From: Candidatus Omnitrophota bacterium
GTDB lineage: Bacteria; Omnitrophota; Koll11; Gygaellales; Profunditerraquicolaceae
Length of the DNA stretch: 14,337 bases
NCBI GenBank assembly: GCA_028712045.1
Contig: JAQTRA010000020.1
Span: forward strand, 1-14,337
Direction of reading: 5' to 3'
This document shows positions 357 to 13,071 of this stretch, piece after piece (within the stretch, counting starts at the first letter, position 1; each line of letters opens with the position of its first letter). A model generated the notes under the pieces. The model did no database searches, was not told the origin of the DNA, and was given only the letters and a program-made list of their open reading frames with translations. A program made the position numbers and the translations under genes.

Positions 357-386
357 TTGAAGTTAGGTTGATTATGGAGGTATAAT
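357..386 (+). promoter_or_regulatory. Promoter of purU operon, leaderless type
   Basis: A -35 box TTGAAG (357-362), an 18-bp spacer and a perfect -10 TATAAT (381-386) precede the purU ATG at 393 by only 6 nt. A start about 7 nt after the -10 box would fall on the A of the ATG. A GGAGG at 376-380 looks like a Shine-Dalgarno but is 12 nt from the ATG and overlaps the promoter spacer, so it would not be in the transcript. Confidence 0.6.
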
Positions 387-392
387 TAAACT

Positions 393-1235
393 ATGCAAAC
401 TTATATATTGCTTTTTAGGTGCCGTGACCAAAAAGGTATTGTAGCTAAGATATCTGATTTTATTTTTAAGCAAGATGCCAATATAATCAAAGCTAACCAA
501 TATACCACTGACCCTGAAGGTGGTTATTTTTTCTTGCGCATCGAGTTCACCTGCGCATCTAGCCAAATTGGAGTATCTTCTTTAACTGAATCTTTTAAAG
601 CAATCGGACAGGAGTTTGCCGGCCAATGGAAGATCTATAATAAAACCCAGCTTTTACGTATGGGCATATTTGTTTCTAATCCGGATCATTGTTTAATTGA
701 TTTGCTTTATCTCTGGAAAATAGGTGAATTACGCGTCCAGATACCTTTTGTGGCCAGCAATTGCCAGGAGCATCGGGCAATTGTAGAACAGTATAATATT
801 CCGTTTTATTTTATTGCTGCTAATAAAGATAACCGAAGAGAAGACGAGCTTTTAGCTCTGGCTTTGGATAAAACAGATTTTCTGGTACTTGCCCGTTATA
901 TGCTGGTTTTGTCGCCGGATTTCCTGGAAAAATATAATAAGGATATTATTAATATCCACCACGGTTTTTTACCTTCTTTTAAAGGCGCTGACCCTTACCG
1001 CGAGGCATTGAATCTTGGGGTTAAGGTTATTGGCGCTACCGCGCACTTTGTAAATGAAAAATTAGATGATGGCCCGATTATTAGCCAGGCAGTTGAAAAT
1101 GTAACGCACGATGATAATTTGGCTTCGTTACTCAGAAAGGGCAGGAACCTGGAGAAACGCGCGCTAACTGAGGCAATATTAAGTTATACTGATTATCGTT
1201 TGATCCGGCACGAAAACAAAACTATTGTTTTTTAA
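393..1235 (+). CDS. purU: Formyltetrahydrofolate deformylase
   Basis: Hydrolyses 10-formyltetrahydrofolate to formate and tetrahydrofolate, balancing one-carbon pools and supplying formate for PurT; cytoplasmic. The 280 residues are the usual family length. Residues ~3-85 form an ACT domain (YILLFRCRDQKGIVAKISDF), and ~88-265 the formyltransferase fold. The catalytic Asn/His pair is in NIHHGFLPSF (N187, H189) and the Asp in LDDGPII (D225), and GATAHFVNEKLDDGP is nearly identical to the enterobacterial enzyme as I remember it. Start ATG 393 lies directly behind a promoter. It leads a tight operon: 13 bp to the membrane-protein gene and then crtI. A link between one-carbon metabolism and carotenoid synthesis is not obvious. 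The ACT domain distinguishes it from GART or methionyl-tRNA formyltransferase. Confidence 0.95.
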   Translation: MQTYILLFRCRDQKGIVAKISDFIFKQDANIIKANQYTTDPEGGYFFLRIEFTCASSQIGVSSLTESFKAIGQEFAGQWKIYNKTQLLRMGIFVSNPDHCLIDLLYLWKIGELRVQIPFVASNCQEHRAIVEQYNIPFYFIAANKDNRREDELLALALDKTDFLVLARYMLVLSPDFLEKYNKDIINIHHGFLPSFKGADPYREALNLGVKVIGATAHFVNEKLDDGPIISQAVENVTHDDNLASLLRKGRNLEKRALTEAILSYTDYRLIRHENKTIVF

Positions 1236-1236
1236 A

Positions 1237-1243
1237 AAGGAGG
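1237..1243 (+). promoter_or_regulatory. Strong Shine-Dalgarno for the DUF2934-like membrane protein
   Basis: AAGGAGG ends 5 nt before the ATG at 1249 and begins just after the purU stop. It shows that the host uses canonical anti-SD pairing for genes inside operons, in contrast with the SD-less operon heads in this window. Confidence 0.8.
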
Positions 1244-1248
1244 AGTAG

Positions 1249-1623
1249 ATGTCAAAGTTAGATGCTAAAGCTTGTGGAATTGCATTTGGGTTGGTTGCTG
1301 CGGCAGCGATGTTTATTTTAGGGACAATTAATGTGTTATTTTTTTGGATAGAAAGTTATCGCAGAGCGGTCAGTATTTTGTATCTGGGTTATCAGCCAAC
1401 GGTAATCGGTGTAATTTTTGGTTCTTTGTGGGCCTTTATTTATGCTTTTATACTCGGCTCAAGCTTTGCTTGTTTATATAACCGCATCGTGGAAGAGCGC
1501 AAAGCAGAAATTGATGAAAAGATCAAGAATCTTGCCCATGAGATCTGGGTAAAAAAAGGTAAGCCGGATAATAGTTCAGATGAAAATTGGAAGGAAGCAG
1601 TCAGGCGTGTCAGAGGAGATTAA
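1249..1623 (+). CDS. Small holin-like membrane protein with C-terminal DUF2934-like motif
   Basis: A 124-residue protein of unknown function. Two hydrophobic helices (about residues 8-32 and 47-75), separated by a short loop with YLGYQPTVIG, resemble small membrane proteins sometimes annotated as bacteriophage holin or DUF5676; this resemblance is from memory. The cytosolic tail (~78-124) is charged and contains AHEIW (96-100), G104, P106, W114 and A117. The spacing W-x3-G-x-P-x7-W-x2-A agrees with the DUF2934 consensus as I recall it. A phage lysis role is unlikely: there is no endolysin or phage gene nearby, and the gene sits in a metabolic operon, 13 bp after purU and 1 bp before the crtI GTG. 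The start is supported by a strong Shine-Dalgarno. A membrane-tethering or adaptor role would fit but is speculation. Confidence 0.75.
   Translation: MSKLDAKACGIAFGLVAAAAMFILGTINVLFFWIESYRRAVSILYLGYQPTVIGVIFGSLWAFIYAFILGSSFACLYNRIVEERKAEIDEKIKNLAHEIWVKKGKPDNSSDENWKEAVRRVRGD
1613..1618 (+). promoter_or_regulatory. Shine-Dalgarno that fixes the crtI GTG start
   Basis: GAGGAG ends 6 nt before GTG 1625 and lies in the last codons of the preceding gene. It favours this GTG over the in-frame ATG at 1580, which would add 15 residues with no resemblance to the family N-terminus and overlap the upstream gene by 44 bp. Confidence 0.8.
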
Positions 1624-1624
1624 T

Positions 1625-3085
1625 GTGCCTCAGAGAATAGCTATTATCGGCGCAGGCGTAGGAGGTTTAGCTTGCGCCTGTCGTTTGGCCAAAGATGGCT
1701 ATAGTGTAGATGTTTATGAGAAGTTAGCTTCCCCGGGAGGCCGCAACAATATAATTAATGACCAGGGGTTTAAGTTTGATACCGGGCCTTCATTTGTGCT
1801 CATGCCGGATTTTTTCCAAGAGGTTTTTTCTTATTGTGGCGAAAATATCAATGATTATTTAAACCTCAAAACTATTGATCCGAGTTATAAGATTATTTAC
1901 CCGGATGGCGATTGCCTTACCGTGCATAAGGATAGTAACCGCACAAAAAACGAAATTGAGCGCATTGAAAAAGGCAGTAGCCAACAATTCGATAAATTTA
2001 TCGCCGAAACAAAAAATATATATGAAGTTATCCGGCCTCTTTTATATGAATGCGTAACTTTAAAATCTTTACTTGATCCTCGTTTTTGGTTTATCTTCCC
2101 GCAGATTCATGCCTTTGAATCATATTGGCAATTAGCTAAGAAATATTTTAAAAGCCAGAAGCTTTGTTACGCCTTTACATTTGAAGCGATGTTTATGGGT
2201 GTATCTCCTTACCAGGCTCCGGCGTTTTACAGCGTGATCACCTATACGGACCATGCGCAAAAAATAGCTCATCCTCTGGGCGGGATGTATCAGATCCCGT
2301 TAGCTTTAGAGAAGATGGCAAAGAAATTCGGGGCTAAGTTCCATTATAATTGTGAAGTTAAGGATATAAATAAAAAAAATAAGCAGTTTTCTTTAAAAAT
2401 AAACGGAGAAAATATCCTGGCTGATACGGTTGTGGTTAATGCTGATTATGCTTATGCCCAGGAATCCCTGCTTAAAAGGAAGATCCCAAAATTTAAATAT
2501 TCCTGTTCAGTTTACCTTATTTACCTGGGTTTAAATAAAAAGCTGAAAAATTTAAGCCACCATAATTTATTTTTTGCAGATAATTTAGATAAGAACCTTG
2601 ATGAAATATTTAATCAAAGAGTAGTTTCTCAGGATCCTTCATTTTATGTGCATGTTCCCACAGTAACCGATGCTTCGCTTGCTGATGAGGGCAAGGAGAT
2701 CGCTTATATTTTGGTTCCGGTGCCTAATCTTGAAAATGACAATAATAAATTTTTAGATTATGAGGCAGGTATCCGAAAAACTGTTTTTCAGAAGATAAAT
2801 CAGCTGGCTGGTTGTGATTTAGAAAGCTTAATTGAGGTTGAACATAAATTTTATCCCGAAGATTTTATTAAACGTTATAATCTAAAAAATGGGGCAACTT
2901 TTGGGTTAGCGCATAATTTAACCCAAAGCGCATTTATGCGGCCGCAAAATTTTGATACTTTAATTCCAGGCCTTTATTTTGTAGGGGCGAGTACTCAGCC
3001 CGGGGGAGGCTTACCGGTAGTTATTGCCGGTTCACGTATTGTTGCAGATTTAATCAGGAAGAAGGAAAAGAGAGCAGGTACTTAA
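1625..3085 (+). CDS. crtI: Phytoene desaturase, CrtI/CrtN family
   Basis: FAD-dependent carotenoid desaturase or isomerase that introduces double bonds into phytoene to give zeta-carotene, neurosporene or lycopene; membrane-associated. With the GTG start it is 486 residues, normal for the family, and the FAD-binding GAGVGG lies at residues 9-14, followed by the glutamate of VYEK ending strand 2. The signature GFKFDTGPSFVLMP and the C-terminal flavin motif GLYFVGASTQPGGGLP followed by AGSRIVADLI are typical. Number of desaturation steps and C40 versus C30 substrate cannot be read directly; crtB, a GGPP-type synthase and a lycopene cyclase nearby point to C40 and lycopene. Third gene of the purU operon, one base after the upstream stop. 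Its last 32 bp overlap the end of ispH on the other strand, so no terminator can separate them. Confidence 0.92.
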   Translation: MPQRIAIIGAGVGGLACACRLAKDGYSVDVYEKLASPGGRNNIINDQGFKFDTGPSFVLMPDFFQEVFSYCGENINDYLNLKTIDPSYKIIYPDGDCLTVHKDSNRTKNEIERIEKGSSQQFDKFIAETKNIYEVIRPLLYECVTLKSLLDPRFWFIFPQIHAFESYWQLAKKYFKSQKLCYAFTFEAMFMGVSPYQAPAFYSVITYTDHAQKIAHPLGGMYQIPLALEKMAKKFGAKFHYNCEVKDINKKNKQFSLKINGENILADTVVVNADYAYAQESLLKRKIPKFKYSCSVYLIYLGLNKKLKNLSHHNLFFADNLDKNLDEIFNQRVVSQDPSFYVHVPTVTDASLADEGKEIAYILVPVPNLENDNNKFLDYEAGIRKTVFQKINQLAGCDLESLIEVEHKFYPEDFIKRYNLKNGATFGLAHNLTQSAFMRPQNFDTLIPGLYFVGASTQPGGGLPVVIAGSRIVADLIRKKEKRAGT

Positions 3086-3896
3086 TTATTTCCTGAATAG
3101 TTGATTCCGGAGTGGAAGCTCCAGCAGTTATTCCGACCTTCTGAATACCTTTAAACCAGCCTTTTTTTATTCCTCTAACAGAATTTACCCAGTAACTCTT
3201 AGGATTAAGCGATTTTGATATTTCGTATAATCTTTGGGTGTTTGCGCTGTTTTTAGAGCCGATAATAAGCATCAGATCGTTTTTTAGAGGTATGCCGCGG
3301 ATTTCTTCCTGTTTAATTCTGGTTGGCTGGCAGATAGTGTTGTGAAATTCAAGGCCGGGTATAATTTTTTTGAGTTGATTAATGATTTCTGCAACTTTAT
3401 TAAAATTTTGCGTGGATTGCACGACTACTGCTGCTTTTTTAATATTTTTGAGGGATTCGGGGATATTTTTCAGGCGATCAATAACTATTGCCCGGGTATT
3501 TACCTGGCCGATAATTCCGAGTACCTCATCATGTTTTTTATCTCCGATGACGATTAAATTCAAACCTCGGGAATGCGCGTTTCTGGCAATTTTATGAATT
3601 TCTTTGACCATAGGGCAGGTAGCATCAATAATTTTATAGCCTAATTTTTTGCCCTGATTGGTTATTTTAATTGCGTTGCCATGCGCGCGGATTAATAAAA
3701 TTTTATCTTTTCCGCAAGTAAGCCGCTTTATTTTTTTAATTCCTGCTTCTTTAACTTGCTGTACTACCTTTTCGTTATGTACGATATCGCCAAGCATGTA
3801 TACCTGACGATGGCCTTTGGCTGTTTCTAAAGCTAAGGTAATAGCCCGTTTAACTCCAAAACAAAATCCAGCAGATTTCGCCAGGCTGATTTTCAT
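3054..3896 (-). CDS. ispH: 4-hydroxy-3-methylbut-2-enyl diphosphate reductase
   Basis: Last enzyme of the MEP pathway; the [4Fe-4S] protein reduces HMBPP to IPP and DMAPP. With ATG 3896 it has 280 residues. The three cluster cysteines are C12 (GFCFGV), C94 (DATCP) and C189 (NTICQPT). Active-site residues expected from the family are present: H40 (VHNE), H72 (RAHG), H122, E124, S214-x-N216 (GSKNSANT) and S261 (GASTPES). The usual HPEV reads HDEV, a Pro-to-Asp change beside the catalytic Glu. An in-frame TTG at 3902 is possible, but ATG 3896 overlaps the crtB stop as ATGA and has AAAGGA 8 nt upstream (only 2 nt from the TTG), and it places the first Cys at 12 as in well-studied enzymes. Co-transcribed with crtB, it links precursor supply to carotenoid output. 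It may be the only ispH in the genome, which would make this operon essential. Confidence 0.96.
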   Translation of the reverse strand: MKISLAKSAGFCFGVKRAITLALETAKGHRQVYMLGDIVHNEKVVQQVKEAGIKKIKRLTCGKDKILLIRAHGNAIKITNQGKKLGYKIIDATCPMVKEIHKIARNAHSRGLNLIVIGDKKHDEVLGIIGQVNTRAIVIDRLKNIPESLKNIKKAAVVVQSTQNFNKVAEIINQLKKIIPGLEFHNTICQPTRIKQEEIRGIPLKNDLMLIIGSKNSANTQRLYEISKSLNPKSYWVNSVRGIKKGWFKGIQKVGITAGASTPESTIQEIIKYLLSFPSS

Positions 3897-4762
3897 GAGC
3901 AATTTCCTTTAATTAATATTTTAGAAACAATCATTATTTTATCAAGTTTACTTACCTGGGCTCTTTTTAAGAGAACATTGTAACTATTTTTCTCTACTTT
4001 ATTTAATATTGCAGCGTAAATTTCTTTCATCGCCAAAACTACCCGCCGGCAATTTTTATCTTTGAGCATGGCTATTCCGGGAGTGCAATCTGAATAATAT
4101 TGACGGCTGCGTTTGATCTGAAATTTAAGCAGCTTAATGAAATCAGGCGTAGGGGTTGTTTTTTTTAAAGTATCTTCAGTTATGGCGAATTTTTGCATTT
4201 CAGTTTGGGGCAGATAGATGCGTCCTTTTTGCCAGTCTTCTTTAATATCCCGGATTATGTTGGTTAATTGCATGGCAATGCCTAGCTTAATCGCGTAAGC
4301 CTGAGCTTCGGGATCGGAATAGCCGAATATTTTTAACATAATCAATCCCACTACTCCGGCAGCTTTGTAGCAATAATCGTAAAGCTCATCAAAATCAGCG
4401 TAACGGGTTTTCTTTAAATCCATACGCATGCCTTTGATTAATTCATCAAAATATTCCTTGGGTATGGCAAATTTATTTACTATTTCGGCAAACGCTAAAA
4501 GCAGGGGGTCAGCTGGTTTTTGCAGTAGACAGCCCGCATAGGCTTGATCAATATTTTTTTGCATGTTTTCTAAAGCGCCGGTATTCGTTTGGGTGTCTAC
4601 GGCTTCATCGCTAAGCCGGCAAATCGCATAAACAGCATAGGCAGCATTTTGTTTTTCTATGGGCAGGAATAATGATGCGAAATAAAATGTTTTGGCAAAA
4701 TCAGCGGTAATTTTTTTTGCTTTGCTAAAACCGGATTTTAACTCCTGATTGTCCTGGGCCAT
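3893..4762 (-). CDS. crtB: Phytoene synthase
   Basis: Condenses two GGPP to prephytoene diphosphate and then phytoene, the first committed carotenoid step; a peripheral membrane enzyme. It is 289 residues, typical. Both Mg-diphosphate DxxxD motifs are intact: D52-D56 in RLSDEAVD, preceded by YAVYAICR, and D172-D176 in NIIRDIKEDWQKGRIYLP. The N-terminal TFYFASLFLP is the usual substrate-pocket start. It cannot be separated by sequence from squalene or dehydrosqualene synthases with certainty, but the cyclase and desaturase genes on either side support phytoene. No Shine-Dalgarno precedes ATG 4762, and a -10 box ends 6 nt upstream, suggesting leaderless translation. Its TGA overlaps the ispH ATG (ATGA, 3893-3896), so the two are translationally coupled. 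Confidence 0.95.
   Translation of the reverse strand: MAQDNQELKSGFSKAKKITADFAKTFYFASLFLPIEKQNAAYAVYAICRLSDEAVDTQTNTGALENMQKNIDQAYAGCLLQKPADPLLLAFAEIVNKFAIPKEYFDELIKGMRMDLKKTRYADFDELYDYCYKAAGVVGLIMLKIFGYSDPEAQAYAIKLGIAMQLTNIIRDIKEDWQKGRIYLPQTEMQKFAITEDTLKKTTPTPDFIKLLKFQIKRSRQYYSDCTPGIAMLKDKNCRRVVLAMKEIYAAILNKVEKNSYNVLLKRAQVSKLDKIMIVSKILIKGNCS
3905..3910 (-). promoter_or_regulatory. Shine-Dalgarno deciding the ispH start
   Basis: On the minus strand this reads AAAGGA, 8 nt before ATG 3896 and 2 nt before TTG 3902, so it serves the ATG. It lies within the last codons of crtB. Confidence 0.7.
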
Positions 4763-4768
4763 GTTATT

Positions 4769-4796
4769 ATTTTACATCAAAGCCTTTAAAATCCAA
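4769..4796 (-). promoter_or_regulatory. crtB-ispH promoter, leaderless type
   Basis: On the minus strand: -35 TTGGAT (4796-4791), 16-bp spacer, -10 TAAAAT (4774-4769), then 6 nt to the crtB ATG at 4762. The predicted start falls on the ATG and no Shine-Dalgarno is present. Confidence 0.5.
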
Positions 4797-4840
4797 GGGT
4801 TCTTTCAAGGAAGGCAAGCCAATTGATGGCTGAATTATGG

Positions 4841-4868
4841 TTGATAATTGCCAGATTAGTAATAAAAT
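4841..4868 (+). promoter_or_regulatory. crtYc-crtYd-TPR promoter, leaderless type
   Basis: -35 TTGATA (4841-4846), 16-bp spacer, -10 TAAAAT (4863-4868), then 6 nt to ATG 4875. The architecture is the same as at crtB on the opposite strand, again without a Shine-Dalgarno. Confidence 0.5.
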
Positions 4869-4874
4869 ATACTT

Positions 4875-5183
4875 ATGTCTAATTATATGTCCGCGCTTAT
4901 TTTGTCTTTGTTTTTTCCGTTTATTTTAAGTTTTTGGCCGGGCTTAAAGTTTTGGAAGCATATCCGCGCTTTAGGCTTAACTATTTTTATAATCCTGGTA
5001 TTATTTGGAAGTTGGGATATATTCGCCACCAGCCGCGGGCACTGGTATTTTAATCCACAAGGAATTTTTGGTTTAAAGTTAATCAATCTTCCGGTTGAAG
5101 AGTGGTTGTTTTTTGTAATTATCCCATTTTGCTGTATTTTCACCTGGGAAGCGCTGAATTATTTAAAAAGCAGGGCTAAATGA
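4875..5183 (+). CDS. crtYc: Lycopene cyclase subunit CrtYc
   Basis: First half of the heterodimeric, membrane-embedded lycopene cyclase that forms beta-ionone ends. At 102 residues it is the expected size for one lycopene-cyclase domain with three helices (about 5-21, 33-51 and 77-96). The domain signature is visible: HWYFNP (56-61), then NLPVEEWLFF (71-80) with the P-x-E-E acid motif thought to protonate the substrate. Actinobacteria, Myxococcus and others encode two such small proteins; haloarchaea and fungi carry the two domains fused. It starts behind an SD-less promoter and ends in an ATGA overlap with crtYd (5180-5183), which favours equal amounts of the two subunits. Neither half is expected to work alone. 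Confidence 0.88.
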   Translation: MSNYMSALILSLFFPFILSFWPGLKFWKHIRALGLTIFIILVLFGSWDIFATSRGHWYFNPQGIFGLKLINLPVEEWLFFVIIPFCCIFTWEALNYLKSRAK

Positions 5184-5476
5184 GAGAGTACACTTTACTG
5201 GCAGTTTTTTCTTTAGGGCTTACGGTTTTTCTTGACCGTTTAACCAAAGTTCGTATTTTAAAAAATAAAATATTTTATTTTTTTATTGTTGTAATTTTAG
5301 TTTTTAAGTTCCTGGTAAACGGTTATCTTACCAGCACGAATATCGTTATGTATAACCCAAAATTTTTTATGGGTTTAAGAGCAGGTAGTATTCCGTTTGA
5401 AGATTTTATCTTTGGTTTCAGTATGGTTACAATAAGTATTATATTCTGGGAATTTTTCAAAAAAAGAAACCTATGA
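5180..5476 (+). CDS. crtYd: Lycopene cyclase subunit CrtYd
   Basis: Second half of the heterodimeric lycopene cyclase, 98 residues with three hydrophobic segments (about 5-20, 31-48 and 75-92). The matching acid motif is GSIPFEDFIFGF (69-80; P72, E74, D75), preceded by a YNP (58-60), so both halves keep their catalytic carboxylates. Whether the product is beta-carotene (both ends) or gamma-carotene (one end) cannot be told from sequence. The start overlaps the crtYc stop by ATGA with only a weak AGGG upstream, so re-initiation after crtYc is likely. Its own TGA overlaps the ATG of the TPR gene in the same way. Confidence 0.85.
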   Translation: MREYTLLAVFSLGLTVFLDRLTKVRILKNKIFYFFIVVILVFKFLVNGYLTSTNIVMYNPKFFMGLRAGSIPFEDFIFGFSMVTISIIFWEFFKKRNL

Positions 5477-6354
5477 GCAAAGTAATTTTACTCTTTTTAG
5501 TCATATTTTTTCTTTGTTTTCCTGCCTATGCTTTGGAATGGAAAGAGCTCCATGAACAGGCAGATGCGCTGGACATTGGCTCAGCTGTTAAATTATCCGG
5601 TAATAACCCTGAATCTGTAGATGATTTGTATAAATTAGGGTTAGTTTATTTAAATATTCATCAGGATATCCAGGCAAATGATGCATTTTCGAAAATTTTA
5701 TTGTTAAAGCCTGGTTTGATCCAGGCGCGTTGGGGCCAGGCAGAATCATTACGCCGGCAACACAACTTAAATCAAGCCGAGAGCCTGCTGAAACAAATTA
5801 TTGTTGAAAATGCGGATTTTTCCCCGGCCTATATAAGTTTAGCTTATATAAAATATATGCAGATGGATTTTGAGGAATCTGTGCGCTTAGCTTTAAAAGT
5901 AATCCAACAGGGCAGGGATAAAGTTGATTTAAGTAATTATGCGCGCGCCTATTCCATGTATGCGGGAGCTAAAGGAATGATTGCCCATTATGGCGGGCCA
6001 TTTTCTAAAGCGGTAAATGGCCTGGCAGTTAAACCTAATTTAGATAAAGCCGCTAAATTACAGCCTGATGCTGCGGGCGTTCTCTTTGGGTTAGGCAGCT
6101 ATTATCTGCTAGCTCCGGCACTAGCTGGAGGGGATAAAATAAAAGCGGAAGTATATCTTAAAAAAGCAATTGCCGCTGACCCGCTATTCGCGGATATCTA
6201 TGTGCGCTTAGCCCAGCTTTATAAAATAAAGGGCGATAAAGAAAAGTATGGCGGGTATTTAGCTAAAGCATTAGAGATTGATCCGGGAAATGAATTAGCC
6301 CTAGATACTCAAAGCGGAAAATGTAAATTTATTTGTACGGGTGGAAAAGATTAA
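5473..6354 (+). CDS. Secreted tetratricopeptide-repeat protein
   Basis: Unidentified 293-residue protein. Residues 1-20 are a Sec signal peptide (hydrophobic core LLFLVIFFLCF, likely cut after AYA), so the mature protein is probably periplasmic; there is no lipobox. TPR-like helical pairs occur at about 50-83, 84-117, 118-150 and 240-273, the last ending in ALEIDPGN. The middle (about 160-230) has a glycine-rich insert, AHYGG and later APALAGGDKIKA, that resembles the TatT-like TRAP-associated TPR family, but I hold this loosely. Two cysteines near the end (C284, C288) could form a disulfide. No TRAP transporter gene is near. It is ATGA-coupled to crtYd and lacks its own Shine-Dalgarno, so it is made with the lycopene cyclase; a role in carotenoid handling is only a guess. 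Its TAA shares TTAA (6351-6354) with the opposing gene's stop. Confidence 0.8.
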   Translation: MSKVILLFLVIFFLCFPAYALEWKELHEQADALDIGSAVKLSGNNPESVDDLYKLGLVYLNIHQDIQANDAFSKILLLKPGLIQARWGQAESLRRQHNLNQAESLLKQIIVENADFSPAYISLAYIKYMQMDFEESVRLALKVIQQGRDKVDLSNYARAYSMYAGAKGMIAHYGGPFSKAVNGLAVKPNLDKAAKLQPDAAGVLFGLGSYYLLAPALAGGDKIKAEVYLKKAIAADPLFADIYVRLAQLYKIKGDKEKYGGYLAKALEIDPGNELALDTQSGKCKFICTGGKD

Positions 6355-7397
6355 TAATTGATCGCCAGGATTTTTCTGCAGAACTCAACTAAGGTTTTTT
6401 TGTAGATGCCGCGCATCGGTAAATTATCAATTAAGCGTTGGGATTTTTGCATCAAGGAAGTTATCTCTTTTTTAGCGTAATCTAAAGCGCCGGAGCTTTT
6501 TATTATGCTTTGCATTCTGCTTAAATCTTCCAACCGGATCGATTTTGCTGAGAGTATCTTTTTTATGATAGCTTTATCTTTTGGGCAACTGTTATTGTAA
6601 GCGTACCATAAAAGTAAGGTCTTTTTTTCTTCTAAAAGGTCGGTAAGGTTAGATTTGCCTATTTCTGATTCAGAACTAAAAATTCCGATTATATCATCCT
6701 TAATCTGAAAAGCCCGCCCCAAATATATCCCGTAATCAAAAAGTTTTTTAATTTGGTTTTTATTTGCTCCGGCAAGAATTGCCCCCATGGTCAGGGGAGA
6801 AGAGAAAGTATAATTTGCAGTTTTATAATCGTAAATTTTATAAATTTCTTCTTTGTTTACTTCGGCTATTGGTTTTGCCCCTAATAAAAGCTCAATAAAT
6901 TCTCCACTACCGGTGAAAAGTGCCGCTGAAATAAGTTTTCTTAAAGCTAGTTCCTTACGCCCAGGGCTTTCTTTTACCGCTAAAAAGGCGTCGAGAGCCA
7001 TAGCATACATTACATCGCCGGCAACAATAGTTAAATCTGCGCCGTTAAACTTTATTTTTTTATATTTTCGTAAATAATTATCCAATAAAGCGTGCATCGA
7101 AGGCAGGCCGCGGCGGGTATTAGATTTGTCAATGATATCGTCATGCACCAGCATAAAATCATGTAAAAGCTCTAAGGATATAGCGCTGCGGTATAGTCCG
7201 GATGCGGGTTTTTTAGCAAACCCGAGATAGCCGATGCAGAATAATACCGGGCGCACCCTTTTGCCATCACGCGAAATAAACTCTTTGATGCTTTTAAAGA
7301 GTAAGGGCGAAAGGTTGTTTAAGTGGTAGGTTTTATCGATGCTGGCAATATAAGATTGCAGCTCTAAATTGACCCTGCTTTTTATTTTCAAAAACAT
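6351..7397 (-). CDS. crtE: Polyprenyl diphosphate synthase, probably GGPP synthase
   Basis: Trans-isoprenyl diphosphate synthase that elongates allylic diphosphates with IPP. It is 348 residues. The first Asp-rich motif is HDDIID (D86, D87, D90), the second KDDIIG (D234, D235), and GKRVRP lies at 45-50. The FARM has no two-residue insertion, and F81 sits five residues before it with M82 at -4. By the chain-length rules known for type I GGPP synthases this favours a C20 product, in line with neighbouring crtB. An FPP or longer-chain (quinone) synthase remains possible. Encoded alone on the minus strand. The ATG at 7397 has no Shine-Dalgarno and lies 30 bp from the divergent ndh ATG. The end overlaps the TPR gene by 4 bp. 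Confidence 0.88.
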   Translation of the reverse strand: MFLKIKSRVNLELQSYIASIDKTYHLNNLSPLLFKSIKEFISRDGKRVRPVLFCIGYLGFAKKPASGLYRSAISLELLHDFMLVHDDIIDKSNTRRGLPSMHALLDNYLRKYKKIKFNGADLTIVAGDVMYAMALDAFLAVKESPGRKELALRKLISAALFTGSGEFIELLLGAKPIAEVNKEEIYKIYDYKTANYTFSSPLTMGAILAGANKNQIKKLFDYGIYLGRAFQIKDDIIGIFSSESEIGKSNLTDLLEEKKTLLLWYAYNNSCPKDKAIIKKILSAKSIRLEDLSRMQSIIKSSGALDYAKKEITSLMQKSQRLIDNLPMRGIYKKTLVEFCRKILAINY

Positions 7398-7426
7398 GTA
7401 ATTATGGTAACATAGCTATAAAGCCA
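7398..7426. promoter_or_regulatory. 29-bp divergent spacer between crtE and ndh
   Basis: Both flanking ATGs lack a Shine-Dalgarno. Plus-strand candidates for ndh are an extended -10 TGGTAACAT (7405-7413) and TATAAA (7417-7422), the latter too close to ATG 7427. The minus strand has CATAAT ending 3 nt and TATGTT ending 11 nt before ATG 7397. Any -35 box must lie inside the opposite gene or overlap the other promoter. No single assignment is convincing. Confidence 0.3.
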
Positions 7427-8566
7427 ATGCAAACAAAAACGCAGAGAATTATAATTTTAGGTGCTGGTTTTGCCGGTTTAAGCCTGGCCAGAAAGTTGAG
7501 TTCTAGCGGTTTGAACCTGGATATCCTGCTGGTGGATAAGAAGGATGTATCTGATTTTCTTCCGTTATTGCCGGATCTAATTGGCCGCAATCTTCATCCG
7601 GATTATTTGAGTATTAATCTTGAGCAGTTTTGCCGTAAAATCAAATGCAAATTCTTGTTAGCTGATTGTTTAGGAGTTGATCTAACCAGAAAAGAGGTCC
7701 GGTTATCCCGGGGTATTTTTACCTATGATTATCTGGTTCTGGCCAGCGGCAGTGAAACTAATTTTTATGGCAATGAAATTATAAAAAATTACGCTTATAC
7801 TTTAGACAGCGTAGCAGATGCCCGAAAAATAATTCAGGCCTTAAAGCAGAGAAGTTATGATAATTATATAGTTTGTGGCGGCGGTTATACCGGGGTAGAG
7901 GCGGCTACAAACCTGCAAGTATTTTTAATAAAAAATAAAATTAATAAGCGTGTAATTATTATTGAGCGTGCTCCTAAAATATTAAGCATGGTGCCGGAGT
8001 GGATGCAGGCTTATGTCAAACTTAACCTTAACCAGTTAGGTATTGAAATTTTTACCGATAGTGTAATTGAAAAAGCCGAAAACAGCAGTGTTTATTTAAA
8101 TAATAATAGATCATTTCCCAATGCTTTTTTAATTTGGGTAGCCGGGGTAAAAACCGCTGCTTATATTCAGGATTTGCAGGTTGAGAAGAATGCCCAGGGC
8201 AGGATTAAAACTGATGATTTTTTAAGGTTGAATGATTCTTGTTTTGTTGCCGGTGATGCAGCTTATTTTAATGCCGGAGGTAATTATTTGCGTATGGCAA
8301 TCCAGTTTGCGATTACTCAGGGTGATCAGGCAGCCGATAATTTAATCAGATCGATTAAGGGTAAGCAGCTTGTGCAATTTAAACCCCGGGATCTGGGGTA
8401 TATAATTCCTTTGGCTAATAATAAGGCTTGTGGCCAAATTATGGGTTTTGATTTTAAAGGTTTTTTTCCTCTTTTATTGCATTATTCTATGTGTATTTAT
8501 CGCTCTTACGGTTTAAGAAGTAAATCAGGGATACTCAGGAATTTATTAAGCGGAGGCGTAAAATGA
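7427..8566 (+). CDS. ndh: Type II NADH:quinone oxidoreductase (NDH-2)
   Basis: Single-subunit FAD enzyme at the inner face of the membrane that passes electrons from NADH to quinone without pumping protons. It has 379 residues, slightly shorter than typical (about 400-430). Two Rossmann motifs are seen: GAGFAG (12-17) for FAD and GGGYTG with E158 (151-158) for NADH. A C-terminal flavin motif CFVAGDAAY (~270-278) precedes the Gln-rich quinone-side segment RMAIQFAITQGD. The tail FFPLLLHYSMCIYRSYG is the usual amphipathic membrane anchor. A sulfide:quinone reductase is less likely because the SQR cysteine pattern is absent. The TGA overlaps the next ATG (ATGA, 8563-8566), coupling it to the DoxX protein. 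Confidence 0.85.
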   Translation: MQTKTQRIIILGAGFAGLSLARKLSSSGLNLDILLVDKKDVSDFLPLLPDLIGRNLHPDYLSINLEQFCRKIKCKFLLADCLGVDLTRKEVRLSRGIFTYDYLVLASGSETNFYGNEIIKNYAYTLDSVADARKIIQALKQRSYDNYIVCGGGYTGVEAATNLQVFLIKNKINKRVIIIERAPKILSMVPEWMQAYVKLNLNQLGIEIFTDSVIEKAENSSVYLNNNRSFPNAFLIWVAGVKTAAYIQDLQVEKNAQGRIKTDDFLRLNDSCFVAGDAAYFNAGGNYLRMAIQFAITQGDQAADNLIRSIKGKQLVQFKPRDLGYIIPLANNKACGQIMGFDFKGFFPLLLHYSMCIYRSYGLRSKSGILRNLLSGGVK

Positions 8567-8946
8567 TGGATGCCGGTATTTTAGTTTTACGGTTGGGATT
8601 AGGGGTTATGTTTATGGCCCATGGCTTGCAAAAGGCGTTTGGATTGTTTGGCGGGCCAGGGGTTAAGGCTTTTTCTGAAATGCTGGCCGGATTAGGATTT
8701 ACCCCAGCTTTATTTTGGGCATATCTGGCCAGTTATGCGGAGTTAATCGGAGGGTTATTGCTGATTGCCGGAGTATTTAGCCGGGGTGCGGCTTTATTCC
8801 TTTTAATCCTGATTATTACGGCTGGTTTAAAGGTCCATCTAAAAAATGGTTTTTTTCTTTCCGCCGGTGGATTTGAATATGTTTTTGTTATTGCCATGGC
8901 TCTGGCAGCATTAATTTTACTGGGGCCCGGTTCAATCCGCCCTTAA
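8563..8946 (+). CDS. DoxX-family membrane protein
   Basis: A 127-residue inner-membrane protein with four hydrophobic helices (about 4-21, 46-68, 72-90 and 102-122). LRLGLGVMFMAHGLQK at the N-terminus, AYLASYAELIGGLLL in helix 2 and the final GGFEYVFVIAMALA are the hallmarks of DoxX (Pfam DoxX family). Family members are linked to membrane-bound oxidoreductases: thiosulfate:quinone oxidoreductase subunits in Acidianus and the DoxX-SseA-SodA complex of mycobacteria. Biochemical function here is unknown. A GGAGG 6 nt before ATG 8563 supports the start; a second ATG follows at once. Coupling to ndh suggests a partner in quinone-linked electron flow, which is inference. No terminator is visible downstream before the next promoter. 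Confidence 0.85.
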   Translation: MMDAGILVLRLGLGVMFMAHGLQKAFGLFGGPGVKAFSEMLAGLGFTPALFWAYLASYAELIGGLLLIAGVFSRGAALFLLILIITAGLKVHLKNGFFLSAGGFEYVFVIAMALAALILLGPGSIRP

Positions 8947-8965
8947 ATTTGGTTGTATATTAATA

Positions 8966-8993
8966 TTGTAAGTGGGTAAAATTGTGTTATATT
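8966..8993 (+). promoter_or_regulatory. Promoter of the thioredoxin-DsbD operon, leaderless type
   Basis: -35 TTGTAA (8966-8971), 16-bp spacer, extended -10 TGT-TATATT (8985-8993), then 7 nt to ATG 9001. No Shine-Dalgarno lies in the preceding 20 nt. Confidence 0.5.
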
Positions 8994-9000
8994 TAAACAA

Positions 9001-10167
9001 ATGAAAAGAATATCCCGGCCACTTTTATTTGCAATTTTCATATTATTATTTTTTGCGCCTAAATCATTTTCTCAGGAGCTAAAGAGTTTGTTTATTTTTC
9101 ATTCTCCTACCTGTCATCGCTGCGTAGAAGCTAAAGAAAAGATAATCCCCGCGGTATTAAATGAATTTGCTGGTAAGCTGACTGTCCAGTATCGGGATAC
9201 CCAGGAAATAGAAAACTACAAATTTTTACTTAGTTTACAAAAGCAGTTTGCTCCGGATATCACTCTTGATCTGCCGGTATTTTTTATGGAAGGTAAGCTA
9301 ATTAATGGTAGCGGTAGCATTGATCTGAACTTAAGGCAGCTTATTGTCGAATCGCTTGCCAGCCAGAGGAGTGGATTTAAATTGCCAGAGATTGATTTAG
9401 TTAAGCATTTCCAAAGCTTTACTCCTTTAGCGGTTAGTTTTGCCGGGCTTCAGGACGGGATTAATCCCTGTGCTTTTACCGTCATAGTTTTCTTTATTTC
9501 ATTTCTTACCTTGCAAGGGTATAGAAAGAGAGAGGTTTTATTAATCGGGTTAACTTTTATTGCGGCTGTATTTTTAACCTATTTACTTATTGGTTTGGGG
9601 ATATTTAATTTCCTTTACTCTTTAAAAACTACCGTGATTTTGTCAAAAATATTAACTATTTTTATTGGAGCTTTTAGTATTATCCTGGGCTTTTTTGCTC
9701 TATATGATTTCATTAAATTTAAAATATCTAATGATCCCCAAACGCAGGTTTTGCAGCTTCCTAACGCGATAAAAAAACGTATTCAGGCAGTAGTCGGGTT
9801 TTTTCACCGCAAGGACCGCTCGGCGGATTCAAAGGCGCGGCCGCATATATTTAAGTTGGTAATCAGTGCACTAATCAGCGGGTTTTTGGTTACTTTGCTT
9901 GAGACGGTTTGCACGGGGCAGCTTTATCTTCCCACAATTACTTATATTTTAAAAACCACGCAATTTAAATTTGATGCTTGGTTGTACTTATTGCTTTATA
10001 ACATCATGTTTGTCCTGCCTTTGATTTTAATATTCATTCTGGCGCTTTTTGGGGTGACCAGCGATCAGTTCGCGGCATTTTTAAAGAAACATCTGGCGAT
10101 GATTAAATTAATTATGGCGTTATTATTTCTTATTTTAGGGGTGGTGCTGATTAAGGGGGTATTATGA
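9001..10167 (+). CDS. Periplasmic thioredoxin fused to DsbD/CcdA-like electron carrier
   Basis: A 388-residue thiol-disulfide relay in one chain. Residues ~1-25 are a signal peptide or anchor. A thioredoxin-like domain (~26-125) carries the CxxC pair C38/C41 in HSPTCHRC, and the cis-Pro region is probably LDLPVFF (89-95). Six helices follow (about 150-171, 178-198, 211-236, 284-304, 327-350 and 365-385), with NPCAF (C157) in the first and VCTGQ (C304) in the fourth, the redox cysteines that carry electrons across the membrane in DsbD/CcdA proteins. The loop at 237-283 is rich in Lys and Arg and should be cytosolic, so the thioredoxin domain faces the periplasm. It would bring reducing power from cytosolic thioredoxin to periplasmic proteins. 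Classical DsbD has its thioredoxin domain at the C-terminus; here it is N-terminal. Coupled to the DUF1573 gene by ATGA (10164-10167). Its client proteins are unknown. Confidence 0.85.
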   Translation: MKRISRPLLFAIFILLFFAPKSFSQELKSLFIFHSPTCHRCVEAKEKIIPAVLNEFAGKLTVQYRDTQEIENYKFLLSLQKQFAPDITLDLPVFFMEGKLINGSGSIDLNLRQLIVESLASQRSGFKLPEIDLVKHFQSFTPLAVSFAGLQDGINPCAFTVIVFFISFLTLQGYRKREVLLIGLTFIAAVFLTYLLIGLGIFNFLYSLKTTVILSKILTIFIGAFSIILGFFALYDFIKFKISNDPQTQVLQLPNAIKKRIQAVVGFFHRKDRSADSKARPHIFKLVISALISGFLVTLLETVCTGQLYLPTITYILKTTQFKFDAWLYLLLYNIMFVLPLILIFILALFGVTSDQFAAFLKKHLAMIKLIMALLFLILGVVLIKGVL

Positions 10168-10598
10168 GAAAATTATTTTTCTTATCTTTATTTCTGATTT
10201 TTAACACTTATTGTTTTGCCGCTGGCCAGAAGGACGCGGTTTGGCCTCCTTTAGCCAAAGCCGCCGGCTCTGTCCCGGTGGCTCAGGAATCTGTACAGAT
10301 AAATCCGCGGAGTTGGGATTTTGGCAAGGCTAAAGCTGGCGAAATCCTGGAGCATACTTTTGTTTATAAAAATGAAAGTAAAACAGTAGTTGAACTAATC
10401 AGTGCCAGCACTTCTTGCGGTTGCACTGTTTCGGCGATCAAGAAAAAAACATTGCTTCCCGGTGATAGTTCCGATATTGCGGTTACTTTTAATTCTAAGA
10501 ATTATAGTGGAGAAGTAAAACAGTTTATATATTTAAATACCACCAACCCGGCGGAATCGGTTGTGCGTTTTGATATTAAAGCAATAGTTGAAAAATAG
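10164..10598 (+). CDS. Secreted DUF1573 protein with CxC motif
   Basis: A 144-residue exported protein with a signal peptide (MRKLFFLSLFLIFNTYCFA) and one DUF1573 domain, an immunoglobulin-like beta-sandwich at about 46-144. Family marks are the WDFGKAKAGE opening (51-60), HTFVYKNES, the STSCGCT motif (C85, C87) and LLPGDSSDIAVTFNS. The molecular function of DUF1573 is not established. The start has AAGGGGG 4 nt upstream and overlaps the stop of the thioredoxin-DsbD gene, so the two are made together. The CGC pair next to a dedicated thiol reductant suggests it could be the client kept reduced, or could carry a metal; this is inference. htpX follows 12 bp later. Confidence 0.85.
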   Translation: MRKLFFLSLFLIFNTYCFAAGQKDAVWPPLAKAAGSVPVAQESVQINPRSWDFGKAKAGEILEHTFVYKNESKTVVELISASTSCGCTVSAIKKKTLLPGDSSDIAVTFNSKNYSGEVKQFIYLNTTNPAESVVRFDIKAIVEK

Positions 10599-10600
10599 AA

Positions 10601-10607
10601 GGGGGAG
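10601..10607 (+). promoter_or_regulatory. Shine-Dalgarno of htpX
   Basis: GGGGGAG 3 nt before ATG 10611, within the 12-bp gap after the DUF1573 gene. There is no separate promoter, so htpX is probably read from the operon promoter at 8966-8993. Confidence 0.6.
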
Positions 10608-10610
10608 AAG

Positions 10611-11570
10611 ATGTTTGGCTTAAAATTACGTATGGCTTTATTAGTCTTTGCGCTTTTTGGCATAATTTATGCTTTATTTGTTATGTTGGGCGCATATTTA
10701 GGTATCAATAATTTTTATTTTTACCTCATTTTATCTTTAGGCATGATGTTTTTGCAGTATATGCTGGGGCCGAAATTAGTCGAGTGGAGTATGCGGGTAA
10801 AATATATCAAAAAAGACGAAAACCCGCGGTTATTCCAGATGGTGGAATCCCTGTCCAGGCGCGCTATGATCCCTACTCCCCGGATTGGAATAGCTCAAAT
10901 CGAAATCCCTAATGCTTTTGCTTTTGGCCGGGGGGTTAAAGATGGCCGGGTTTGCGTCACCGCCGGTATCATGAATCTTTTAAATGATGATGAATTAAGA
11001 GCAGTCCTGGGCCATGAAATCAGCCACTTAAAAAACCGGGATGTGTTAACCATCACTTTGCTTTCGGTAATTCCGATGATTATGTATCGGCTGGCCTGGC
11101 AGTTTCTTTTTATGGGCAGAAGAAGGGATGACCGGGGAGGAAATACCGTATTAATCGGGGTGGTGGCATTTTTGTTCTATTTTATTACTAATTTGTTGGT
11201 TTTGTATGCTTCACGTATTCGTGAGTATTTTGCGGACAGGGGTTCTATTGCTTTAGGGTCAAGCCCGGCAACACTTGCTTCCAGCCTTTACAAACTGGTT
11301 TATGGTTCGGCGCGGATGAATAAAGAAACCCTTAAAGAAACCGAGGGGCTCAAGGCATTTTTTGTGAATGACCCTTCCCGGGCAGGAATTGAAATTTCGG
11401 ATTTAGCCCAATTGGACTTAGATAAAAGCGGGACTATTGATGCTAGCGAATTAGAGATTTTAAGAAGAAAGCAGATGAAATTAGGTTGGGGTGATAAAAT
11501 GCTGGAGATGATGAGCACCCATCCGAATATGCTCAAACGGATTAAAAGGCTGGCCGAGTATAAAAACTAA
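10611..11570 (+). CDS. htpX: HtpX-type M48 membrane metalloprotease with EF-hand insert
   Basis: Integral membrane zinc endopeptidase that cleaves damaged membrane proteins on the cytosolic side. It has 319 residues (E. coli about 293). Two N-terminal helices (~5-28 and 33-55), the zinc site HEISH (H135, E136, H139), two more helices (~146-168 and 178-200) and the third ligand E205 in EYFADR are all in place. Unusual is DLDKSGTIDASE at 269-280, a complete 12-residue EF-hand loop with Asp at 1, 3 and 9, Ser at 5, Thr at 7 and Glu at 12, placed between the usual FFVNDPS segment and the final STHPNMLKRIKRL. Calcium could therefore tune activity. I recall similar inserts in some archaeal and bacterial HtpX relatives but cannot check. 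Last gene of the operon with the envelope thiol relay, consistent with an envelope stress role. Confidence 0.92.
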   Translation: MFGLKLRMALLVFALFGIIYALFVMLGAYLGINNFYFYLILSLGMMFLQYMLGPKLVEWSMRVKYIKKDENPRLFQMVESLSRRAMIPTPRIGIAQIEIPNAFAFGRGVKDGRVCVTAGIMNLLNDDELRAVLGHEISHLKNRDVLTITLLSVIPMIMYRLAWQFLFMGRRRDDRGGNTVLIGVVAFLFYFITNLLVLYASRIREYFADRGSIALGSSPATLASSLYKLVYGSARMNKETLKETEGLKAFFVNDPSRAGIEISDLAQLDLDKSGTIDASELEILRRKQMKLGWGDKMLEMMSTHPNMLKRIKRLAEYKN

Positions 11571-11575
11571 TGCAA

Positions 11576-11604
11576 TTGACATAAGCTGATGCCTAAGATA
11601 TAAT
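11576..11604 (+). promoter_or_regulatory. Perfect-consensus lysS promoter
   Basis: TTGACA (11576-11581), 17-bp spacer, TATAAT (11599-11604): full sigma70 consensus in both boxes at ideal spacing. The lysS ATG at 11614 follows after 9 nt, so the leader should be 0-3 nt, and no Shine-Dalgarno is present. Strong constitutive expression of lysS-lolC-lolD is expected. Confidence 0.85.
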
Positions 11605-11613
11605 TATAACTCT

Positions 11614-13071
11614 ATGGAACTAAACGAGATTATCCAACAAAGAATAGAAAAACGCCTGGCGATTGAGGCAACTGGCCAAAGCGCGCATGACCGGGTTTTG
11701 CCTGGCCGCGTTGAGATTTCTTCTATTTTGAGTAATTTTCAGGAAGGCACAAAAGCAGTGCTGGCCGGCAGGGTAACTGCCAAGCGTTCTCATGGAAAAG
11801 TGAGTTTTCTGGATTTAAGGGATACTACCGGCAGGATTCAATTATATGTCAAGACAACTGAGTTGGCCGAATTAAAAGCAAAACTTTTTGAAAATATTGA
11901 TATTGCAGATATTTTATCGGTTAAAGGTGAGCTTTTTAAGACGCATACCAATGAACCCACTTTAAGAGTAGAGGATTTTGTTATTTTGAGTAAAGCTATC
12001 CGGCCGCTTCCGGAAAAGTGGCATGGGCTTAAAGATGTGGAGGTGCGTTATCGGCAGCGCTACCTGGATTTAATTGCTAACGCGGAAGTGAAAAATATCT
12101 TTGCTTTAAGGTCCAAAATTATCCGTGAAATAAGAAATTTTCTGGATACCCGCGCTTTTTGCGAAGTGGAAACTCCGATGATGCATGATGTTCCCGGGGG
12201 AGCAGCTGGCCGGCCTTTTAAAACTTTTCATAATGAATATAAGATGGATCTTTACTTAAGGATTGCCCCGGAACTATATCTTAAAAGGCTTTTAGTCGGC
12301 GGGCTGGATAAAGTTTATGAGATCAACCGTTCTTTTCGTAATGAAGGTGTATCTACCCGGCATAATCCGGAGTTTACTATGCTTGAGGTTTATCAGGCTT
12401 ACGCGGATTATGAAGATATGATCAATTTAACCCAGGATCTTATTTGCCATTTAGCCAAAGAGCTTTTGGGTAAAGACGAACTTACTTTTCAGGGCAAAGC
12501 TATCGCGCTTAAAACTCCCTGGAACAGGCAATCGTTTGCCGGGTTGGTGAAGGAGAAGTTTGGCATTGACCCGCAAGATGAGCCTAATCAGATGCTGAGT
12601 AAACTACAGCTTAAAGGGTTTGCTAAAGACAAAAACCGCCTGAGCCGTTCTCAGATCAATAAAATTATCGAAGATACTCTGGAACAGGATATGCAGGCCA
12701 GCCCGACATTTATTACCGATTATTTTACTGTGCTTTGTCCGCTGGCCAAAACAAAAAAAGATAATCCGTTAATTTCAGAAAGATTTGAATTATATGTCGC
12801 CGGTATGGAAATTGCTAATGCTTATTCTGAGTTAAACGACCCAACCGAGCAGAAAAGGCGTTTTGAAGAGGAAGTTAAAGAGCTCAATACCGATGAGCAA
12901 AAAAGCGTAGATAATGATTATATTCTGGCTCTAGAGCATGGCATGCCTCCGGCCGGTGGTTTAGGTATTGGTATTGACCGGTTGGTGATGTTGTTTGCCA
13001 ATCAGCCGTCAATCAGGGATGTGATTTTATTTCCTTTGCTTAGATCTCAAGAAGAGGTTGTTGAGGAATAA
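11614..13071 (+). CDS. lysS: Lysyl-tRNA synthetase, class II
   Basis: Charges tRNA-Lys with lysine in the cytoplasm. It has 485 residues against about 500 in E. coli. An N-terminal OB-fold anticodon-binding domain (~45-135; AGRVTAKRSHGKVSFLDLRD) is followed by the class II core: motif 1 around FLDTRAFCEVETPMM, motif 2 with FRNEGVSTRHNPEFTMLE (R242, E244) and motif 3 GIGIDRLVMLF (R456). The lysine-pocket stretch NAYSELND is kept. Where most bacterial enzymes read DYP-x-E-x-SPLAK, this one has DYFTVLCPLAK, a lineage variation near but not in the core pocket. ATG 11614 follows a consensus promoter at near-leaderless distance. lolC starts 2 nt after its stop, and lysS-lolC-lolD is an order I recall from several Gram-negative groups. 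Confidence 0.97.
   Translation: MELNEIIQQRIEKRLAIEATGQSAHDRVLPGRVEISSILSNFQEGTKAVLAGRVTAKRSHGKVSFLDLRDTTGRIQLYVKTTELAELKAKLFENIDIADILSVKGELFKTHTNEPTLRVEDFVILSKAIRPLPEKWHGLKDVEVRYRQRYLDLIANAEVKNIFALRSKIIREIRNFLDTRAFCEVETPMMHDVPGGAAGRPFKTFHNEYKMDLYLRIAPELYLKRLLVGGLDKVYEINRSFRNEGVSTRHNPEFTMLEVYQAYADYEDMINLTQDLICHLAKELLGKDELTFQGKAIALKTPWNRQSFAGLVKEKFGIDPQDEPNQMLSKLQLKGFAKDKNRLSRSQINKIIEDTLEQDMQASPTFITDYFTVLCPLAKTKKDNPLISERFELYVAGMEIANAYSELNDPTEQKRRFEEEVKELNTDEQKSVDNDYILALEHGMPPAGGLGIGIDRLVMLFANQPSIRDVILFPLLRSQEEVVEE
13063..13067 (+). promoter_or_regulatory. Shine-Dalgarno deciding the lolC start
   Basis: GAGGA ends 5 nt before ATG 13073, inside the last lysS codons. It rules against the in-frame TTG at 13058, which would add five residues and lacks a well-placed site. 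Confidence 0.6.

Follow-up and report, generated by a model that had tools for sequence, protein, structure and literature searches.

In the DNA analysed here, a stretch of 14,337 nucleotides (nt) from contig JAQTRA010000020.1 of a Candidatus Omnitrophota bacterium (hereafter the window), the -10 box of a promoter lies at a fixed, short distance from the ATG of several genes that head a transcription unit and not from internal starts, as a preliminary description of this DNA had proposed, and the same holds in stretches from related genomes. We consider it very probable, judging from sequence, that a subset of such operon heads in this Omnitrophota lineage is expressed from a sigma70-type promoter abutting the ATG as leaderless mRNA, with downstream genes led by Shine-Dalgarno (SD) sites. 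In the proposed mechanism, ordinary sigma70-type promoters with a -10 box 6–9 nt before the ATG, present at a subset of heads, would place the RNA polymerase start on the A of the ATG or no more than about 3 nt ahead of it. The mRNA would then be leaderless and translated from its 5'-terminal AUG without SD pairing, while downstream genes of the same transcription unit, lying inside the message, would use SD sites. From the promoter position, and by analogy with other bacteria, we infer both a transcript 5' end at or near the ATG and translation by 5'-AUG recognition.

Upstream of purU, a -35 box TTGAAG (357–362) and a -10 box TATAAT (381–386) are 18 nt apart, and 6 nt follow before the ATG at 393 (promoter 357..392, plus strand). 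The promoter of crtYc (4841..4874, plus strand) reads TTGATA (4841–4846), 16 nt, TAAAAT (4863–4868), 6 nt and ATG 4875, and that of crtB on the minus strand (4763..4796) reads TTGGAT (4796–4791), 16 nt, TAAAAT (4774–4769), 6 nt and ATG 4762. TTGACA (11576–11581), 17 nt, TATAAT (11599–11604) and 9 nt precede the lysS ATG at 11614 (11576..11613, plus strand), and a promoter-like site before the gene at 9001 (8966..9000, plus strand) consists of TTGTAA (8966–8971), 16 nt, TATATT (8988–8993), 7 nt and ATG. These five arrangements, on which the preliminary description was built, proved exact on direct reading. Absent from it were two further heads, the divergent pair ispA (7397, minus strand) and ndh (7427, plus strand). 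The former fits the pattern (7398..7432, minus strand: TTGCAT 7432–7427, 17 nt, TACCAT 7409–7404, 6 nt, ATG 7397), and ndh passed neither the promoter test nor the SD test. The ispA -35 box (minus strand, 7427–7432) is the complement of ATGCAA, the beginning of ndh, and the ndh start codon therefore sits inside the ispA promoter.

For the promoter test in the window we required a -35 box beginning with TTG and matching TTGACA at 3/6 positions or more, 16–18 nt, a -10 box of the form TA...T matching TATAAT at 4/6 positions or more, and a start 5–9 nt further on, thresholds that were chosen after the sites of the preliminary description were known and that admit ispA only thanks to the 3/6 allowed for the -35 box; with them, 6/7 heads and 0/9 internal starts passed. 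When the upstream regions of the seven heads were dinucleotide-shuffled 4,000 times, 0, 1, 2 and 3 passes occurred in 3491, 482, 25 and 2 shuffles, so the maximum was 3/7. Among the 402 ATGs on both strands of the window with 60 nt of upstream sequence, seven passed, and all six heads are among those seven.

The other side of the pattern, SD-like sites at seven named internal genes (1249, 1625, 3896, 8563, 10164, 10611 and 13073), was likewise found at each of them. AGGAGG (1238..1243, plus strand) precedes the gene at 1249, where AAGGAGGAG is kept in G001, the closest genome; AGGAG (1614..1618, plus strand) precedes the internal crtI (GTG 1625, plus strand), with GGGGGA and GGGAGG before two orthologs among the matches listed, and GGAGG (8552..8556, plus strand) precedes the internal doxX-like gene (8563), with AAGGAGG or AAAGGAGG-type sites in five listed ortholog rows from four genomes. 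The sites of 10164 and 10611 are runs of G, and 13073 has GAGG 6 nt before its ATG by eye. Two internal genes left unnamed have AGG only (5180) and no SD (5473). In relatives, compared by local tblastn of the window genes against their loci (best 14 rows per gene), SD-like sites are retained at 1249, doxX, htpX and 10164 among the matches listed. At the five heads, the claim that none has an SD at normal spacing stood, with a correction for purU, where GGAGGT is present and ends 11 nt before the ATG, an overlong spacing; in G001 the window's GGAGG is replaced by TGAGG, which still contains the 4-mer GAGG. A 16S search for the anti-SD CCUCC matched in 0/5 genomes, the stretches examined being without a 16S 3' end and giving one chance 11-mer only.

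Genome-scale tests were run on genomes of relatives in place of the window's own. With gene calls from four Omnitrophota genomes (G001, G004, G032 and G085) pooled, and ATG starts only, heads were inferred from gene order alone as divergent genes or co-directional genes with a gap above 25 nt. A -10 box at 6–8 nt was found at 88/714 heads against about 48 in shifted windows, and at 30/987 internal genes against about 38 by chance, a restriction to single or proximal genes that is a mark of the leaderless class; among divergent heads the count was 28/91. Another such mark, the lack of an SD at these genes while others have one, was also seen, with an SD 4-mer at 5/88 qualifying heads versus 303/626 other heads and 444/987 internal genes. 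Qualifying heads had a -35 box in register in 40/88 cases (others, 37/626) and a pyrimidine immediately before the ATG, the pattern of a YR start site, in 68/88 (others, 323/626). The joint -35/-10 arrangement at 6–8 nt occurred at 40 heads against a shifted-window mean of 10.6, and at 4 internal genes against 3.0; by genome, the head counts were 13 versus 4.4 (G001), 15 versus 3.0 (G004), 10 versus 2.4 (G032) and 2 versus 0.8 (G085). Thermus pTT27, used as positive control, behaved like the Omnitrophota heads (9/55 heads, SD at 0/9, pyrimidine at 9/9), and the negative controls gave 2/92 heads in E. coli and 2/78 in Bacillota-type loci.

The gene caller (order 4, minimum score 6) recovered only 32 of the 46 genes annotated in a 50-kb stretch of E. 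coli, with 29/32 starts exact; head fractions are therefore rough, and a test free of gene calling was added. Its strict setting took sites in which, 16–18 nt apart, one hexamer agreed with TTGACA at 5/6 positions or more (TTG fixed) and another with TATAAT at 5/6 or more, and recorded the distance to ATGs downstream, with the expectation taken from ATGs at distances of 12–59 nt; two looser settings were also used. ATG at 6–7 nt after these sigma70-like promoters was found 14 times in G001 (3.9 expected, P 6e-5) and 12 times in G004 (3.5 expected, P 3e-4), and the peaks at the two looser settings agree (P 5e-5 to 6e-4). The strict controls, which are small samples, gave 1 versus 0.2 in E. coli and 2 versus 1.3 in Bacillota-type loci. 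Open reading frames (ORFs) of at least 80 codons were enriched at the 6–7 nt ATGs of G001 and G004 at all three settings (P 8e-4 to 2e-2), and at the loosest setting also in G085 and in more distant loci (P 0.014 each); no such enrichment was found in G032, E. coli or Bacillota-type loci. At setting 4/4, SD motifs accompanied 1/42 of the 6–7 nt ATGs in G001 and G004 combined, versus 65/247 of ATGs at 18 nt or more. Actinobacterial leaderless mRNAs use GUG as well; in G001 and G004, by comparison, the excess was clear for ATG alone (14 and 13 versus 2.8 and 2.7 expected), and GTG at 6–7 nt was found 0 and 0 times against 1.3 and 0.9 expected (setting 4/5), counts whose low power does not exclude GTG. 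In lysS-centred loci an ATG peak lies at 8–9 nt and is chiefly lysS itself. G032 (stretches L216–L235) showed an unpredicted ATG excess at 8 nt (7 among 85 sites, 1.6 expected).

The arrangement is also conserved between species. For purU, G001 alone among the matches listed retains TTGAA, TATAAT and the 6-nt distance. In G004, crtB (50% protein identity) retains the -10 box and the 6-nt distance, and crtYc (58% protein identity) retains AGTAATAAAAT-6-ATG. The ispA promoter recurs as TTGC(A/T/C)T-17-TA(A/C)CAT-5/6-ATG in at least five other genomes (L116, which is G001, L003, L004, L092, the same as L005, and L008). The site at 9001 is the weakest of the set and is not conserved in G001. The purU and lysS start codons are those used by SD-led orthologs. 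Among G001/G004 orthologs with aligned starts, 4/127 pairs have the state in common (odds ratio 25, P 6e-4; 1–2 in shifted windows). Two divergent genes whose starts are 76 bp apart, at L154:15284-15361 in G001 and L090:5891-5968 in G004, have -10-abutting promoters on both sides; as far as its sequence can tell, this pair is a conserved double leaderless head in the two genomes.

The most extensive series is that of lysS. In 18 loci besides the window it has a -35 box, 17 nt, TATAAT, 9 nt and ATG exactly; the -35 box is TTGACA in 17/18 (L011 deviates), TATAAT and a T or C before the ATG are present in 18/18, and most spacer columns are variable. A distance survey covered L001–L064 and four outgroup loci, of which 64 were scored and 4 lacked upstream DNA; one earlier listing was a hand-made part with 65/80 loci. 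A consensus promoter 7–12 nt from the ATG, a leaderless-like state, was present in the window and in 25/64 scored loci, six of which (L047, L051, L054, L056, L059 and L060) need a start other than the extrapolated one. After exclusion of six non-Omnitrophota rows (L058, L062, L065, L066, L072 and L079), 33 other loci were left. A promoter scoring 11 or 12 of 12, at least 20 nt away and within 150 nt of an in-frame start, was found in 27 of these, the nearest at 20, 22 and 23 nt (L023, L037 and L044) and the rest farther; none scoring 11–12/12 was found within 150 nt in the remaining six (L027, L035, L038, L041, L050 and L064). Many of the 33, not all, carry an SD-like 4-mer. An empty distance gap of 13–24 nt, considered at one stage, was dropped: measured from actual start codons it covers no more than 13–19 nt and varies with the start chosen.

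On a quick LysS tree the leaderless state required 6 changes against a shuffled mean of 20.6 and appeared in separate branches, including L047, L051/L054/L056/L059/L060, L017/L021, L022, L024, L030 and the window's clade; the outgroup was not set apart by a single branch, and those 6 changes may be gains or losses. The unusual 8–9 nt distance is common to separate branches, which speaks for common ancestry. We tentatively suggest, with somewhat less than even confidence, that leaderless lysS is ancestral in Omnitrophota and that new leaders, often containing an SD, have repeatedly come between the start codon and one TTGACA-17-TATAAT promoter, which widely separated branches keep 8–9 nt from the ATG. 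If true, the phylum would offer a natural record of an essential gene that, under one promoter, switched time and again from leaderless to leadered. In the same tree, L011 and L034, titled Planctomycetales, have LysS that groups inside Omnitrophota and are perhaps mislabelled bins; next to the outgroup lie L044 and L053, which bear Omnitrophota titles, and L064 (Ratteibacteria). A scan with the exact consensus pattern placed ATG at 5–9 nt 233 times and at 25–29 nt 163 times in 145 Omnitrophota genomes; the corresponding counts were 311 and 389 in 119 genomes from the phylum to which L065, a Desulforamulus, belongs (odds ratio 1.8, P 6e-6). The scan is only modestly informative, and lysS itself adds to the 233.

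Some of the results weigh against our reading. About 48 of the 88 qualifying heads are the chance expectation. The -10 box enriched about 10–12 nt before the start, a mark of the leaderless class that the preliminary description had asked to be checked genome-wide, was found in the window, G001 and G004 and, by the caller-free test at 6–7 nt, not in the more distant Omnitrophota G085 and G032 (strict, 2 versus 2.0 and 3 versus 3.2), which were picked for large contigs and, in the case of G032, also for having no 5–9 nt matches in the exact-pattern scan. Two sets of lysS-centred loci also lacked the 6–7 nt peak (strict, 2 versus 1.4 and 3 versus 3.4), and at the loosest setting the controls, small samples again, rose to 5 versus 2.2 in E. 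coli (P 0.07) and 9 versus 5.2 in Bacillota-type loci (P 0.09). The G001/G004 ortholog test is weak, one of its four sharing pairs probably being spurious, and purU in G002, G003 and G004 has a G-rich, SD-like site near the ATG instead, which speaks against a general rule. Could the whole pattern then be chance, with -10-like hexamers expected near ATGs at the window's 39.0% GC and the matching heads selected? TA...T is indeed common (shifted windows in G001 gave 11–19 matches among 241 heads versus 31 at 6–8 nt), and of the two heads first omitted ndh is a misfit. The other, ispA, fits, however; no shuffle exceeded 3/7 and six of the seven passing ATGs are heads, and the excess in relatives is position-specific, comes with a -35 box, a missing SD and a -1 pyrimidine, and is conserved across species. 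We therefore regard chance as scarcely credible. A more specific artefact, an in-frame TAA mimicking TANNNT at distance 6, is countered by the caller-free test and by the excess at the out-of-frame distance of 7.

An account in which leaderless starts are the rule for operon heads as a class and SD sites the rule for internal genes, the general split drawn in the preliminary description, agrees with the window itself (6/7 heads, 0/9 internal starts), but this share is far above that in the four genomes. With 88/714 heads, some 48 of them by chance, the statement that operon heads are leaderless is too broad; the other heads carry an SD 4-mer in 303/626 cases, a share similar to that of internal genes (444/987), and in part of the phylum an SD site leads lysS as well as purU. 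We consider this account very unlikely, and the related proposal that the -10 box marks the start codon holds for a subset of heads and fails as a general rule. An alternative with rather more to recommend it, though still improbable, is that the promoters are real and the messages have a short or alternative leader, transcription starting a few nt upstream or from extra upstream promoters and translation depending on an SD or leader. The lysS distance of 9 nt, above the mode of 6–7, and the purU GGAGGT 11 nt from the ATG leave room for a short leader, and read-through from upstream genes is possible. Yet 83/88 such heads have no SD 4-mer, the purU GGAGG is TGAGG in G001, all 18 lysS loci at 9 nt have a pyrimidine before the A of the ATG, and lysS distances are either 7–12 or at least 20 nt from the likeliest start, with start choice uncertain in distant loci. 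A leaderless subset, a minority of heads, is thus the reading that these sequences favour, and we take it to be real.

The window contains purU, a DUF2934 gene, crtI, ispH, crtB, two lycopene cyclase halves, a TPR-like gene, a polyprenyl synthetase gene (here called ispA), an NADH-dehydrogenase-like ndh, the doxX-like gene, the genes at 9001 and 10164, htpX, lysS and a lolC-like gene. Pfam was run on ten of them and identified ACT and formyl transferase domains in the purU-like gene (393..1235, plus strand), SQS_PSY in crtB (minus strand) and Lycopene_cyc in crtYc (plus strand). ispH, the TPR gene, doxX (plus strand), 9001, 10164, lysS and lolC were named or described from reading of their translations; the product of 9001, thioredoxin/membrane-like on such a reading, had no Pfam match. 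The lysine-tRNA ligase gene lysS (11614..13071, plus strand) served to find relatives by LysS similarity. Its best match is L001 (91%), a metagenome-assembled genome titled Candidatus Omnitrophota bacterium bin S2.101, with which it pairs in the quick LysS tree at a Shimodaira-Hasegawa-like approximate likelihood ratio test (SH-aLRT) value of 100; because of this match and pairing, the window is placed by its LysS sequence in Omnitrophota, which bears out the Omnitrophota-like lineage first suggested for it. In the corresponding stretch of G001 (L116), purU and lysS are about 5.9 kb apart, versus 11.2 kb in the window, and ispH, ispA, 9001, 10164 and htpX are present. Among the matches listed, L116 has none for crtI, crtB, ndh, doxX, the TPR gene or either lycopene cyclase half, and the carotenoid part of the locus (window 1625–8946) therefore looks variable between the window and G001.

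The mechanism itself is known from other bacteria. In the accessible text of Zheng et al. (2011; PMC3160421), which treats TA-led (TANNNT) leaderless genes in 953 bacterial genomes of 2010, such genes resemble those described here in having a -10-like box some 12 nt upstream of the start codon, of TAtaaT form at medium GC, and in that a polycistronic transcript can be leaderless for its proximal gene alone, with an SD required by the distal ones; leaderless mRNAs of Actinobacteria similarly have TANNNT close to the start. Omnitrophota heads differ from the TA-led genes of that study in carrying a TTGACA-type -35 box with the -10 box in 40/88 cases. Also similar are Deinococcus-Thermus, in which, according to the accessible part of PMC12340547, a -10 box abutting the start yields leaderless mRNA, SD motifs coexist in the genome and promoter-start contact is backed by experiments. 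There, about 30% of ORFs are concerned and the -10 box suffices without a -35 box, whereas in the four Omnitrophota genomes about 12% of called heads qualify, a figure of which chance would account for half, and a -35 box is often present. According to the accessible part of PMC9581028, which cites the figure, leaderless transcription is predicted for 21.6% of bacterial species. The groups listed in the accessible text of Zheng et al. (PMC3160421) are without Omnitrophota and "Omnitroph" is absent from it, with one genome unclassified; the accessible part of PMC5397173 makes no mention of Omnitrophota, "Omnitrophota" and "leaderless" occur in unrelated places in PMC12641178, and PMC12340547 mentions a domain-wide scan of common phyla in its supplement. 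In the literature searched, whose reach stops short of preprints and most subscription papers, no description of leaderless genes in Omnitrophota/Omnitrophica or candidate phyla was found, in line with the suggestion that the pattern may be undescribed in this lineage.

Our results would add a large uncultured phylum to the bacteria known for -10-adjacent leaderless expression, and the position of the -10 box may offer gene finders a start-site signal in Omnitrophota. The most interesting part is the lysS series, in which a near-identical promoter would drive either a leaderless or a leadered message, an evolutionary series through which the gain and loss of leaderless starts becomes testable.

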